Assembly: GCA_002869015.1 (NCBI GenBank)
Contig: PKTT01000065.1
Span: forward strand, 17,272 to 81,271
Length of the DNA stretch: 64,000 nucleotides
Source: Deltaproteobacteria bacterium
GTDB lineage: Bacteria; Desulfobacterota; Deferrisomatia; Deferrisomatales; BM512
Direction: 5' to 3'
Shown piece by piece: positions 1 to 16,480 of this stretch. A program made the translations under genes and the position numbers. The notes under the pieces are model-generated. The model did no database searches, was not told the origin of the DNA, and saw nothing but the letters and a program-made list of their open reading frames with translations. The stretch's first letter is position 1. Each line of letters starts with the position of its first letter.

Positions 1-80
1 GCCCTAACGGGGCTGTTTACGCCACCAGGTATAATTTTTTTGGCTTCTTCAAAGAGTGCTGAGGATTGGTCGTGCTTCAT
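1..80 (-). CDS. hemL: glutamate-1-semialdehyde 2,1-aminomutase, N-terminal fragment (runs off window)
   Basis: The reverse strand from the ATG at 80 reads MKHDQSSALFEEAKKIIPGG followed by VNSPVRA. This is the characteristic start of HemL, the PLP enzyme that makes 5-aminolevulinate from glutamate-1-semialdehyde in C5 tetrapyrrole synthesis. A GGAGG Shine-Dalgarno sits about 9 nt upstream of the ATG. Only 26 codons lie in the window, too short for the ORF track. It is divergent from the operon starting at 275. A paralogous class-III aminotransferase lies at 28026-29366, but it lacks the VNSPVR signature. Confidence 0.88.
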   Translation of the reverse strand, partial: MKHDQSSALFEEAKKIIPGGVNSPVR

Positions 81-180
81 AGTTTGCTGCCTCCGATCGG
101 AGCATTGAAAGTTCTGAAAATACCCGGTTTTTTCTAGCATGTTAATTGTGGCAAGGCAACCCGCAATAACCGTGAACGCC

Positions 181-210
181 TTGAATAATTGTGAAGTCGC
201 ATGCTATATT
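181..210 (+). promoter_or_regulatory. putative sigma70 promoter with extended -10
   Basis: TTGAAT (181-186), an 18-nt spacer, then TATATT (205-210) preceded by TGC, which gives an extended -10. It lies about 65 nt upstream of the first gene of the operon at 275 and points toward it. Sequence match only. Confidence 0.45.
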
Positions 211-274
211 CAGCGCTTGAGTGTAAAAGTTGTTTTTACCCCTATTTCCGGGGATTGCAGGGGAGTGCGATACC

Positions 275-11240: not shown

Positions 11241-13889
11241 ATGACCGGAGCAGAAGTCCGGAAGCTCTTTCTGGATTACTTTGAGAAGAAGGGCCACAAG
11301 GTTGTCGCCAGCAGCTCCCTTGTGCCGCAGAACGACCCCACGCTCCTATTTACCAACGCGGGGATGAATCAGTTCAAGAACATCTTCACCGGCGTTGAAA
11401 ATCGCGATTACAAACGCGCCACAACCTGCCAGAAGTGCCTTAGGGTCTCGGGTAAGCATAACGACCTTGAGAACGTCGGCCGCACCGCACGCCATCACAC
11501 CTTTTTTGAGATGTTGGGCAACTTCAGCTTTGGAGATTATTTCAAGCGGGACGCCATCATTTTTGGCTGGGAGTTTCTAACCGAGGTAGTCGGCCTTGAT
11601 AAAGATCGCTTATGGGTAACCATCTTTGATGATGACGACGAGGCGGATACCCTCTGGCGCGAGCTAACACCGGTCCCCCCTGAGCGAATAATACGTTGCG
11701 GCGAGAAAGACAACTTTTGGGCCATGGGCGATACAGGCCCATGTGGGCCTTGCAGCGAGATACACTTTGACCAGGGCCCGGGTATATACCCCTGCCCGGA
11801 CCCGGAAAATTGCGGCCCGGAGTGCGACTGCGACAGATATCTTGAGCTTTGGAACCTTGTCTTTATGCAGTTCGAGAGGGATGCCTCCGGCACTCTTAAC
11901 CCCCTGCCCAAACCCTCAATTGATACCGGGATGGGGCTTGAGCGCATTACCTCCGTGGTGCAAGGCAAGCTCAACAATTACGATACTGACCTCTTTAGCC
12001 CGCTTATTGATTTTACAGCCAATTTGGCTGGTACTAAGTATGGGGCCTCTGAGGACTCCGACGTTAGCCTACGCGTCATAGCCGACCATATACGTTCGGC
12101 TGTATTCCTTATTGGTGACGGCATCCTTCCCTCCAATGAGGGGCGAGGTTACGTGTTGAGGCGAGTTATGCGCCGGGCAATGCGGCACGGGAGACTTCTT
12201 GGCTTCACGGAGCCCTTCTTCCACGAGGTCGCAGGGGTCGTTATCACCTCTATGGAGGAGAGCTACCCTGATTTGGCCGATAAACGTGACTATGTAGCCA
12301 AGGTCATTCTGCATGAGGAGGAGCGCTTTATACGCACCCTCGACCGCGGCCTTCAGCTCCTTGAGTCCGAGGTTGAAAAGGTGGAGGCTGCGGGCAGCGG
12401 CGTCCTCCCCGGCGAGGTTATTTTTCGCCTTTATGACACCTACGGTTTCCCGGTAGATTTAACTGCGGATATCGTTGTCGACAGGGGCATTGTATTAGAT
12501 GAAGCGGGCTTTGAGGCTGAGATGGAGGCGCAGCGGGAGAAGGCGAGGAGCGCCTGGAAGGGCTCAGGGGAGGAGGCCGTTAGCAGCGCTTACAGAGAGC
12601 TCGTAGAGGGGGGCCACCGCGTTACCTTCACAGGTTATGATCTCCTTGAGAATGAAACTGAAGTGAAGGCGCTCATTGTGGACGGATCCATTGTTGATGA
12701 AGCCGCTGAAGGGGCCTTAGTGGAGCTTATCCTCGGCGAGTCGCCTTTCTACGGAGAGAGCGGCGGGCAGATGGGCGATACAGGCGTCGTTACCGGCGAA
12801 GGCTTCAAGGTAAAGGTAACAACCGCTCAAAAGCCTTTGGACGGCCTTATTGTACTCCATGGTGAAGTAACGGAGGGCAAAGCCTCTGTAGGCGCTAAAG
12901 TACATGCGAAGGTGAAAAGCGGCGAGCGCTTTGCCACAGCGCAAAACCACTCCGCTACCCACCTCATGCATGCTGCACTCCAGGAGGTCTTGGGGGACCA
13001 TGTAAAACAGGCTGGCTCCCTTGTTGGACCGGATAGACTCCGCTTTGACTTCTCCCACTTCGCGCCCATGACTAAGGAGGAGATTCGCAAAGTTGAGGAG
13101 TTGGTCAATGTTTGGGCCGCTAAAAATGACCCCATCTCTGTCTCAGAAGAGAATTATGACGCCGCCGTAAAGAAAGGAGTAAAGGCCCTCTTCGGTGAGA
13201 AGTATGGTGACAAGGTCCGCGTGGTTAAGATGGGAGAGGTTTCTGCCGAGCTATGCGGGGGCACCCACGCATCCTCAACTGGAGAAATAGGCCTTTTTAA
13301 GATACTTTCTGAGGCAGGCGTAGCCGCCGGGGTAAGGCGTATTGAGGCAGCTACCGGTGAGCGGGCACTTTCGGCTATGTGGGATACCGAGGATAAGCTG
13401 GATGCTGTCGCTTCGGCGCTCAAATCTTCCCCCGACGAGGCGGCTGAACGCATAAAGAAGATACAAGCCGCAATGAGAGAACAAGAAAAAGAGATAACAT
13501 CGCTACGTGGACAGCTTGCAAGCGGCACTTCAAGGGATATCCTTTCAGAGAAGCGTGAGATTGCAGGTGTGGATGTTCTTGCAGCCCGCGCTCCGGTTTC
13601 AGACGCTAAGGGCATCAGGGAATTCGCCGATACCCTGCGGGACCGCATGAAGAGCGGCATCTTTGCCCTAGGCGCCGAGGCGGATGGTAAGGCGGTGCTG
13701 CTTGTGGGTGTTACCGCCGACTTGACCGCAAAGGTCAAGGCTGGCGAGTTGATCCGCCCCATCGCGGAAGTTGTTGGCGGTCGTGGAGGAGGAAAGCCCG
13801 AGCTGGCTCAGGCTGGTGGAAGTGAACCCGCTAAGCTGGATGAAGCTTTAGCGCTCTTTTATGATGTTGTAGCTAAAGGGCTCGGCTAA
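11241..13889 (+). CDS. alaS: alanyl-tRNA synthetase
   Basis: 882 aa, full length. Catalytic core starts with RKLFLDYFEKKGHKVV and TARHHTFFEMLGNFSFGDYF. The editing domain carries HSATHLMHAAL (HxxxH) and CGGTHASSTGEIG for zinc binding. A C-terminal coiled and DHHA1-like region ends with GGRGGGKPELAQAGG. An extra Cys-rich insertion in the catalytic domain (CGPCSEIHFD ... CPDPENCGPECDCDRYLELWN) matches a known AlaS variant. GAGAGGA ribosome site. Follows pilT by 39 nt. Confidence 0.97.
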   Translation: MTGAEVRKLFLDYFEKKGHKVVASSSLVPQNDPTLLFTNAGMNQFKNIFTGVENRDYKRATTCQKCLRVSGKHNDLENVGRTARHHTFFEMLGNFSFGDYFKRDAIIFGWEFLTEVVGLDKDRLWVTIFDDDDEADTLWRELTPVPPERIIRCGEKDNFWAMGDTGPCGPCSEIHFDQGPGIYPCPDPENCGPECDCDRYLELWNLVFMQFERDASGTLNPLPKPSIDTGMGLERITSVVQGKLNNYDTDLFSPLIDFTANLAGTKYGASEDSDVSLRVIADHIRSAVFLIGDGILPSNEGRGYVLRRVMRRAMRHGRLLGFTEPFFHEVAGVVITSMEESYPDLADKRDYVAKVILHEEERFIRTLDRGLQLLESEVEKVEAAGSGVLPGEVIFRLYDTYGFPVDLTADIVVDRGIVLDEAGFEAEMEAQREKARSAWKGSGEEAVSSAYRELVEGGHRVTFTGYDLLENETEVKALIVDGSIVDEAAEGALVELILGESPFYGESGGQMGDTGVVTGEGFKVKVTTAQKPLDGLIVLHGEVTEGKASVGAKVHAKVKSGERFATAQNHSATHLMHAALQEVLGDHVKQAGSLVGPDRLRFDFSHFAPMTKEEIRKVEELVNVWAAKNDPISVSEENYDAAVKKGVKALFGEKYGDKVRVVKMGEVSAELCGGTHASSTGEIGLFKILSEAGVAAGVRRIEAATGERALSAMWDTEDKLDAVASALKSSPDEAAERIKKIQAAMREQEKEITSLRGQLASGTSRDILSEKREIAGVDVLAARAPVSDAKGIREFADTLRDRMKSGIFALGAEADGKAVLLVGVTADLTAKVKAGELIRPIAEVVGGRGGGKPELAQAGGSEPAKLDEALALFYDVVAKGLG

Positions 13890-13912: not shown

Positions 13913-14215
13913 ATGATTGAAGTTTTACGTAAGGCGATGTTGGCTGGTATAGGTGCACTGACGCTTACAGAGGCCAAAGCGCGGTCTATTGTCGACGAGC
14001 TGGTAGAGCATGGAAAACTCTCCAAAGAGGAGGGCGAAGGGCTTGTTGAAGAGCTGTTGGCAAAGGCGGCGGTATCGCGCAAAGAGCTTGAACAGAAAAC
14101 AACCGAGTTTTTGAAAGAGGGCCTTAAAAAGATGGACCTCGTAATGCGCAGCGAATTTGATGAGCTAAAGGCCAGGGTAGCGCTCCTTGAGGAGAAGTTA
14201 ACTAAAGAGAAGTAG
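13913..14215 (+). CDS. small phasin-like / PHA-granule-associated helical protein
   Basis: 100 aa, highly charged and almost entirely helical. It opens with MIEVLRKAMLAGIGALTLTEAKA, continues through VDELVEHGKLSKEEGEGLVEELL, and ends in a coiled coil (RVALLEEKLTKEK). This matches the small phasin / polyhydroxyalkanoate-regulator-like family found in many proteobacteria. A PHA role is not supported by any neighbour, so the functional label is tentative. It is probably cotranscribed with alaS and ends just before an intrinsic terminator. Confidence 0.65.
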   Translation: MIEVLRKAMLAGIGALTLTEAKARSIVDELVEHGKLSKEEGEGLVEELLAKAAVSRKELEQKTTEFLKEGLKKMDLVMRSEFDELKARVALLEEKLTKEK

Positions 14216-14238: not shown

Positions 14239-14275
14239 AAGAAGGCGTCATCTTAGGGTGACGCCTTCTTCTTTG
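14239..14275 (+). terminator. intrinsic terminator after alaS / phasin-like gene
   Basis: AAGAAGGCGTCA (14239-14250) pairs perfectly with TGACGCCTTCTT (14259-14270) around an 8-nt loop. A pyrimidine-rich, mixed T tract follows. Confidence 0.7.
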
Positions 14276-14319
14276 GTGTCAGGTCTTGAAGAGCGCTGTT
14301 GCTGTGGTAGAATAAATCC

Positions 14320-15159
14320 ATGACAAGACCAGTGAGAGTGGAATTTCCCGGCGCGGTTTACTTCATCACAGCCCGTTCAGTTGGTGGTGAGGCGCTTTTT
14401 CGTGGTGATGATGACCGCTCCAGCTTTCTGTATATTATTTCCCATGTTGTCTCTAGGTACAGTTGGAATGTGTGGGGGTACGCCCTTTTAAAAGGCGAAT
14501 ACCTTCTTTTAATCGAAACCCCTGAGGCTAATCTTTCCAAAGGCATGCGCCAGCTTGGGGGGCTCTATACCCAACGCTACAATGAAAAGTATGGGCGTAA
14601 AGGCAAGCTCTTCAGGGGCAGGTATAAATCGCTGCTGGTCGAGCGGGGTGACAAGGTTCTTGAGGTAGTTCGGCACATTGCGCTTGCTCCCGTACGCGCT
14701 AAATTATCTACCGGCCCGGAATTTTATATCTATTCAAGCCACAGGCCGCTGTCGGGGTTGGCCCGGCGTCCCGAATGGCTAGATGCGGATGGCTTGCTTC
14801 AATTTTTCGGTGGTGAAGAACCGGTGAAAAAATACGCCAACTACATCTATTCTGTGGACGCTGCGGCAACTATTTTGTCAGGTGCCAGACGGCAGCTAGC
14901 CCTTGGCGGGGACGAATTGCTTGAAAAAAGTAGTGAGTTGGCGAGGAAAAAGGTATCAGGCCGTGGGGTTAGGCGCCCATCGCTTGCAAAGTTAAAACGA
15001 ATTGTCGGGAAAAAATTCAACTCTAAGGATGAGCGAAATCTAGCGGTTTATGCTGCTTACGATGAAGGCGGCTACACCCTTGAAGAGATTGGCGAGGCCA
15101 TTGGCCTCCACTACGCTACCATTAGCCGCATAATCAAAAAGGTTGAGGAAGCGAGCTAA
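14320..15159 (+). CDS. REP-associated tyrosine transposase (RAYT/Y1)-like protein with lost HUH motif and C-terminal HTH
   Basis: 279 aa. The N-terminal ~175 residues follow the RAYT/IS200-like fold: MTRPVRVEFPGAVYFITARS, GYALLKGEYLLLIETP, QRYNEKYGRKGKLFRGRYKS, VVRHIALAPVRAKL. Active relatives have HVT in the first motif and NHFHLLI or NHVHLLI in the second. Here the histidines are gone (YFIT and KGEYLLLI), while a Tyr remains in LYTQRYNEKYG. The C-terminal ~70 residues resemble a DnaA-like or Trp-repressor-like HTH (EGGYTLEEIGEAIGLHYATISRIIKK). It is probably a domesticated, catalytically dead DNA-binding protein. It sits between two hairpins and is convergent with rho. Confidence 0.8.
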   Translation: MTRPVRVEFPGAVYFITARSVGGEALFRGDDDRSSFLYIISHVVSRYSWNVWGYALLKGEYLLLIETPEANLSKGMRQLGGLYTQRYNEKYGRKGKLFRGRYKSLLVERGDKVLEVVRHIALAPVRAKLSTGPEFYIYSSHRPLSGLARRPEWLDADGLLQFFGGEEPVKKYANYIYSVDAAATILSGARRQLALGGDELLEKSSELARKKVSGRGVRRPSLAKLKRIVGKKFNSKDERNLAVYAAYDEGGYTLEEIGEAIGLHYATISRIIKKVEEAS

Positions 15160-15180: not shown

Positions 15181-15209
15181 AAAAAGGCCGCACGAATGTG
15201 CGGCCTTTT
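15181..15209. terminator. bidirectional intrinsic terminator between RAYT-like gene and rho
   Basis: AAAAAGGCCGCAC (15181-15193), GAAT loop, GTGCGGCCTTTT (15198-15209). The A and T flanks let it work in both directions between convergent genes. Confidence 0.82.
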
Positions 15210-15232: not shown

Positions 15233-16480
15233 TCAATCGCTCATTGACTCAAAAAATTCCGTGTTGGATTCCGTTCCCTTCATCCTGTCCAAGAGGAACT
15301 CCATGGCGTCCTGGGGATTTAGCGCCGAAAGCACCTTCCTGAGTATCCAAATACGGTTCATCTCCATTTCGTTGAGAATGAGATCCTCTCTTCTGGTGCC
15401 GGAACGCTGTATGTCAATGGCTGGGAAGACCCGGCGGTCTGCAAGCTTGCGGTCCAGCACAAGCTCCATGTTGCCCGTTCCCTTAAATTCCTCGAAGATG
15501 ACCTCATCCATTCTGGAGCCGGTGTCAACAAGCGCGGTTGCGATGATTGTAAGGCTCCCTCCCTCCTCAATATTACGCGCCGCGCCGAAAAAGCGCTTTG
15601 GTTTGTGCAGGGCGTTCGAATCAACGCCGCCGGAGAGGATTTTGCCGGAGTGCGGTACGACCGTGTTGTAAGCTCGGGCGAGGCGTGTGATTGAGTCTAA
15701 GAGTATTACAACGTCTTTGCGGTGCTCAACCAGGCGCTTGGCCTTCTCAATGACCATATCCGCCACCTGAACATGCCGCTGTGCCTGCTCATCGAAGGTG
15801 GAGGAGATGACCTCGCCCTTGACTGAGCGCTGCATATCGGTGACCTCTTCGGGTCGCTCATCTATCAGGAGAACTATCTGCTCGATTTCGGGGTGGTTGG
15901 CGGTAATGGAGTTGGAAATTTCTTTAAGTAGGACTGTTTTTCCTGTTCTTGGCGGTGCGACAATCAGTCCGCGTTGCCCCATGCCTACCGGTGAGGTTAT
16001 GTCCATCACTCGCATTGTGTAGATAGAGGGCCCCACCTCTAACTTTATGCGCTGGTCAGGGAATATTGGGGTAAGGTTCTCAAAGAGCATCCTGTTTCTG
16101 GCCTGCTCAGGGGTGTCGCCATTTATAGTGGAAACTTTCAGTAGGGCGAAATATCGTTCAGAATCCTTGGGTGGCCTAATCTGACCATTTACTGTATCGC
16201 CTGTACGAAGCCCAAAGCGCCTTATCTGGCTAGGGGAGACGTAGATATCGTCCGGCCCGGGCAGATAGCTGTAGTCTGGTGAGCGGAGAAAGCCGAAACC
16301 ATCTGGAAGGAGCTCCAGCGTTCCCTCTCCAAATATGTTCCCATTCTGCTCGGAGGTCGCTTTAAGAATGGCAAAGATTAGATCCTGCCTGCGCAGCCGA
16401 GTCGCGCCCTCGATCTCCAGTGATTCCCCAAGCTCGGTGAGCTCGCTGATAGCTTTTTTCTTGAGTTCTTGCAGATGCAT
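15233..16480 (-). CDS. rho: transcription termination factor Rho
   Basis: 415 aa. N-terminal helical domain ([19 protein letters not shown]), RNA-binding cold-shock-like domain ([35 protein letters not shown]), and ATPase domain with Walker [13 protein letters not shown] and Walker B-type [17 protein letters not shown]-loop and R-loop regions follow ([15 protein letters not shown]). Hexameric RNA helicase that ends transcripts. GGAG precedes the ATG by about 10 nt. A leader of about 200 nt separates it from its likely promoter; I found no obvious regulatory structure in it. Confidence 0.96.

Follow-up and report, generated by a model that had tools for sequence, protein, structure and literature searches.

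The features of TIRYTs, the terminal-inverted-repeat type that corresponds to TnpA-REP subclass 2.1, were described by Di Nocera 2013 (PMC3733652) and Quentin 2018 (PMC6006769). Their C-terminal domain is of the HTH_23/28 type or Bac_DnaA_C-like, and the published analysis doubted that terminal inverted repeats (TIRs) are recognized by these domains (PMC6006769). The chemistry of the superfamily involves metal coordination by two histidines and a 5'-phosphotyrosine intermediate (PMC8266576), and sequences without the motifs were set aside in the published survey as probably nonfunctional. All published TIRYTs that we aligned retained both HUH and the tyrosine.

The gene described here lies in a stretch of 64,000 nucleotides, the whole of which we refer to as the window. 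With TIRYTs it shares a Y1 core, a C-terminal helix-turn-helix (HTH), a length of about 280 aa, the absence of REPs, and a GGGGWSAS-type left TIR whose distance from the gene is the usual one; it differs from them in lacking HUH, the catalytic tyrosine, and the right TIR, and in occupying a fixed chromosomal locus. RAYTs of groups 2/3 (structure 4er8) have the same fold and N-terminal sequence in common with it, and they have also been called domesticated, single-copy, and vertically inherited. However, RAYTs keep HUH and the tyrosine and act on REPs, whereas the window protein has neither catalytic residues nor REPs and carries an added HTH. A likeness of another kind is offered by TldRs, nuclease-dead proteins originating from TnpB. 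TldR proteins act as transcription regulators (PMC13418256). Like these, the window protein would be an IS200/IS605-type transposon protein that lost catalysis and was kept as a regulator; however, TldRs are RNA guided and come from TnpB, whereas the window protein comes from the TnpA/Y1 side and is predicted to read one transposon end directly as a protein. Regulators made from dead transposon proteins are known in kind from TldR, and the open-access papers searched contained no report of HUH-less RAYT or TIRYT proteins as regulators.

The gene, its locus, and its descent

An earlier note on this DNA had described the gene as a single intact ORF, and this was confirmed: the frame runs from the ATG at 14320 to the stop codon ending at 15159 (279 aa) with no internal stops, and the start codon, identical in the ortholog of a sister species, backs the assigned ATG. 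The RAYT/Y1 kinship that the note had proposed was likewise borne out. NCBIfam NF047646 (REP_Tyr_transpos) matched the protein with an E value of 5e-10 and 39.4 bits, under the cut-off of 80 bits, which was not reached by the intact paralog of the same genome either (72.9 bits). Identity to this intact HUH TIRYT was 38%, and the top PDB match of the AlphaFold model (built from a 4-sequence alignment, mean pLDDT 71) in Foldseek was 4er8, a RAYT with its REP hairpin (E 2.4e-6). Pfam Y1_Tnp matched at an E value of 0.12 only, and a sequence search of solved structures returned nothing useful. For the C terminus, both a match to HTH_23 (E 3.7e-4, under Pfam's own cut-off) and a three-helix unit in the predicted model agreed with the HTH that the note had noticed.

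Table 1 Features of the locus (positions are those of the window)
Feature	Position	Strand	Evidence or remark
alaS	11241-13889		Upstream of the gene
Phasin-like 100-aa ORF	13913-14215		Pfam Phasin, E 7.9e-8
Intrinsic terminator of the upstream alaS operon, 14-pair stem	14239..14270	+	Fold, compensatory changes
Retained left TIR, GGTGTCAGGTCTTG	14275..14288	+	Relatives have GGGGTCAGGTCTTG; one change
Predicted promoter	14286..14313	+	-35 TTGAAG, 16-nt spacer, -10 TAGAAT
-35 TTGAAG	14286-14291	+	Overlaps the inner end of the TIR
-10 TAGAAT	14308-14313	+	Ends 6 nt before the ATG
TIRYT-derived protein, 279 aa, predicted catalytically dead	14320..15159	+	ORF, profile, model, and alignment evidence
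Y1/HUH-fold domain	residues about 1-140		
Lost HUH motif, codons 60-62	14497..14505	+	H60 to E and H62 to L, fixed in both species
Lost catalytic tyrosine, codon 119	14674..14676	+	Y to H; sister species still Y
Variable linker	residues about 141-215		
C-terminal HTH, residues about 236-278	15025..15153	+	Profile match, model, ortholog identity
Hairpin terminator, gene/convergent rho	15181..15209	.	Fold, compensatory changes in the sister species
rho	15233-16480		Convergent with the gene

The source of the gene needed revision. Relatives at 36 to 45% identity are proteins of about 280 aa with the same C-terminal HTH, and the genes of intact relatives are flanked by the inverted repeats GGGGTCAGGTCTTG / CAAGACCTGACCCC. 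The window protein is nested among these TIR-flanked, HTH-bearing relatives, which places it in TnpA-REP subclass 2.1; judged by this placement, it derives from TIRYTs and not from REP-associated RAYTs, the source suggested in the note.

The two flanking hairpins, which the note had proposed to search for as REP-like elements, fold much better than shuffled sequences (z of -7.1 and -4.4), and both stems are preserved in the ortholog through compensatory changes. A genome search with the first found no other close copy. We therefore rejected them as REPs: both fold and covary as terminators, and the flanking GTAG hairpin that marks active RAYTs is absent here. The second hairpin occupies the expected position of the right TIR.

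The gene order is alaS, phasin-like ORF, terminator, gene, terminator, and convergent rho. The note had placed the gene between alaS and rho; alaS is not adjacent, since the phasin-like ORF and a terminator intervene. A phasin-like ORF directly 3' of alaS was also seen in other members of the family and order. In the sister species the order recA, pilT, alaS, phasin-like ORF, gene, and rho recurs (L033), so that the alaS-rho location of the gene is common to two species, both represented by draft assemblies. Conservation of the locus across the family was rejected: no other family genome has such a gene beside alaS. One of them (G004) has alaS and rho close together with a radical-SAM-like gene in between (L036:741-2189); in two others the two genes lie apart (G002) or on different contigs (G003). 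Because the other family genomes lack the gene beside alaS, and because no more than 2 of the 12 class genomes were found to carry it, we regard it as a genus-level acquisition. As a side observation, the alaS-rho interval appears to accept different insertions, such as the radical-SAM-like gene of G004.

Active-site loss before the species split and selection thereafter

In 41 intact relatives, eight alignment columns show the same residue without exception, and the window protein differs at all eight (H15F, N59G, H60E, H62L, H96K, Y119H, N123A, and W138Y). In the HUH region, NHYHLL of the intact relatives became GEYLLL, and in the tyrosine region, YVVLNPV became HIALAPV. The ortholog of the sister species, which belongs to the same genus (L004/L033), carries F15, E60, L62, K96, A123, and Y138 like the window protein; at 6 of the 8 positions the identical residue is thus fixed in both species, including N to A at codon 123. 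Codon 59, just before the lost HUH motif, encodes G in the window and D in the sister species, which retains Y119 alone of the eight invariant residues. The earlier note had reported both histidine motifs as replaced. The HUH histidines are indeed gone, but the histidine of its "YHVT" motif (H15) lies outside the HUH motif, although it is invariant in the intact relatives; moreover, the note had missed that the catalytic tyrosine, H96, N123, and W138 are also changed in the 41-relative alignment. Since the HUH loss is shared, whereas the tyrosine was lost in the window species only, HUH was lost before the two species separated, and position 119 became free to change. The losses common to both orthologs show that the active site was lost before the two species split. 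As judged from its residues, superfamily chemistry by the known mechanism is not possible for the window protein.

The two orthologs are 80% identical, with no indels in 279 codons and no stops, and differ at 53% of the third codon positions. Their omega was 0.056 by NG86 (bootstrap 0.036 to 0.113) and 0.050 by codon maximum likelihood (omega = 1 rejected, 2dlnL 222), both values being rough, as the dS of the pair is near saturation (2.7 to 2.8); with the dS of alaS (about 1.3) as the denominator, the ratio was still about 0.11. For comparison, omega was 0.030 for alaS and 0.124 for an intact TIRYT pair. Identity amounted to 83% in the Y1 domain (residues 1 to 140), 67% in the linker, and 90% in the HTH, which is the best-conserved part of the protein since the split. 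By these estimates, purifying selection acted after the split at a locus common to both species. The note had suggested domestication instead of a decaying transposon, and the same-locus ortholog, the common losses, the absence of indels, and the low omega support this; relatives that retain HUH and vary in position would have spoken against it, and the opposite was seen in the same-genus ortholog. The gene very probably encodes a retained, noncatalytic host protein.

The retained left end and its proposed role

The left TIR belongs to an 18-nt block, TTGGTGTCAGGTCTTGAA, in which the two species do not differ, and the exact TIR motif occurs in one copy per genome in both species, at the gene only. 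No right TIR exists at the window gene, so that the pair of repeats found at active TIRYTs is missing. Comparison of the two species shows the left TIR and promoter conserved and the right TIR absent. The layout of TIR, promoter, and ATG is similar in intact and dead relatives, with little difference in how far the TIR lies from the ATG, and by this comparison it is ancestral; the mRNA is predicted to be leaderless or nearly so. The conservation of the TIR goes beyond what a promoter would account for, because its outer half lies outside the core promoter. What is conserved at the gene's own promoter is an operator-like site with a footprint beyond the -35 box. In a regulon search of both species, exact sites were unique, most of those with one mismatch lay within ORFs (polA and trpC, for example), and other near-matches fell mostly within unrelated ORFs, so that no regulon was seen.

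We favor, with a probability of roughly 0.55, the reading that the gene encodes a dead protein derived from a TIRYT that probably binds the retained TIR and regulates its own promoter. In an ancestor of the genus, a TIRYT element would have entered the interval that separates the alaS operon from rho and lost its chemistry (HUH and then the tyrosine) together with its right end, and the host would have kept it as a predicted DNA-binding protein. The protein would bind its own single remaining TIR as duplex DNA (predicted target site GGKGTCAGGTCTTG) via the HTH and possibly also via the old Y1 domain. Since the bound TIR overlaps the -35 box, binding would regulate the nearly leaderless promoter, and for the same reason repression is more likely than activation. 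One point against this reading is that the same TIR accompanies relatives whose tail is of the DnaA-C type, so that the TIR may be read by the Y1 domain rather than by the HTH.

Alternatively, the protein could have a structural or architectural role, binding hairpins or replication forks through the old Y1 domain, with the TIR serving as a promoter only. The good conservation of the entire Y1 domain, which also models as a RAYT fold, would fit such a role, as would the absence of a second operator from the genome search; however, a promoter could do without the outer half of the TIR, and yet this half shows full conservation in the species pair and in five species of another dead lineage (f16; see below). 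We consider this explanation unlikely. We give less credence still to a transposition silencer, in which the dead protein would restrain intact TIRYT copies in a dominant-negative manner by occupying their TIRs. The window's own genome does contain one intact TIRYT (contig C59) with two TIRs, GGGGTCAGGCCTTG, but these differ from the site of the dead gene at two positions. In the sister species, the dead gene is equally constrained, yet of a possible intact copy no more than a 67-aa fragment turned up (assembly 92% complete), which makes a silencing-only role less likely. An enzyme kept alive by a different active site, such as E60/Y61/H119, is highly improbable: the two orthologs do have a conserved pocket region, but they differ at position 119 (H or Y) and at position 59 (G or D), and the window protein has lost all eight of the residues that are invariant in the family. 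Slimmer yet is the chance of a recently dead mobile copy in decay, for although the gene is dead, single copy, and deprived of one end, and a related dead copy in G330 has an internal stop, the same losses and locus occur in two species at dS > 1 with no indel or stop and an omega of 0.05.

Dead relatives in other lineages

Among relatives with enough flanking sequence, a matched TIR pair (at least 11/12) was present at 54 of 59 intact (HUH plus tyrosine) genes versus 0 of 11 dead genes. The enrichment is suggestive, and its Fisher p of 2e-9 is not a calibrated value, because the sequences are not independent: the test counts related sequences, with only 2 to 3 independent pairs. Nine of the 11 dead genes kept the left TIR 44 to 46 nt before the ATG; they represent up to four lineages (the window genus, f16, L034, and L071).

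In f16, a group apart from the window lineage, five of the six genomes covered for its class (L105, L106, L107, L108, and L111) carry a dead relative directly upstream of ino1, the identity of which was checked for one gene (Pfam Inos-1-P_synth, E 1.8e-36). The proteins show the motifs DHYH and RHM(V,M)LNPV, with tyrosine changed to histidine and H15 and H96 lost. Their left TIR, GGGGACAGGTCTTGCATTTT, is invariant over 20 nt in the 5 species while its flanks are unconserved; no right TIR was found at the ino1-upstream genes of these 5 genomes. The omega of the f16 dead genes was 0.033 to 0.050. By analogy, the dead relative would regulate a metabolic operon here.

A tree built without the catalytic columns gave at least 2 to 3 origins of the dead state, and a single origin for all dead proteins was weakly rejected (AU p 0.037). 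The grouping of f16 with the window lineage (94/85) is not firm. The two have in common L57 and the loss of H15, N59, and H96 and, when the sister species is included, also D59 and G99. The two lineages may form one old dead clade; the grouping may be real, given the common losses, or reflect long-branch attraction. Relatives in other groups seem to have made the same change separately.

We tentatively suggest that these proteins belong to a general class of bacterial transcription factors, so far overlooked, that arose from Y1 (TnpA-type) transposases and have the left end as promoter and operator of the regulator or of its operon. If it is real, its members would have lost catalysis and the right end at the alaS-rho locus, at the ino1 operon, and in further lone cases, and the class would mirror, on the TnpA side, the TldR regulators that derive from TnpB. 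Dead lineages with an HTH and exactly one promoter repeat would amount to a natural separation-of-function experiment, suggesting that the repeat serves both as a promoter element and as a site that is bound in duplex form. As HUH- or tyrosine-less members were set aside in the main survey, such regulators would have been missed.

Several other RAYT-like proteins were observed along the way. The window's own genome encodes a second one of 220 aa (L003:1501-2163; contig C8:78569-79228), without HUH (NSVS) and without the tyrosine; its tail, RGRKPK, is basic and similar to an AT-hook. With its orthologs (L074, L075, and L076) it occurs in 4 family genomes in all, beside the same neighbor in the sister species, and has an omega of 0.10 to 0.13; it is an independent dead RAYT kept in this genome. 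Another RAYT-like protein lacks HUH and ends in a DnaA domain IV-like tail; its gene lies just before an apparent rpmH-rnpA-yidC cluster (L035:4892-5881), where no TIR was seen. Three RAYT-like proteins from the same order (L016, L017, and L019) kept HUH, have histidine in place of the tyrosine (VHVHLNPV), and carry long C-terminal extensions. Finally, in two genomes of one genus (L125 and L126), both HUH histidines of a TIRYT relative are replaced by glutamine (DDQYQIV); with TIRs absent and an internal TAG in one copy, this relative looks like real decay.
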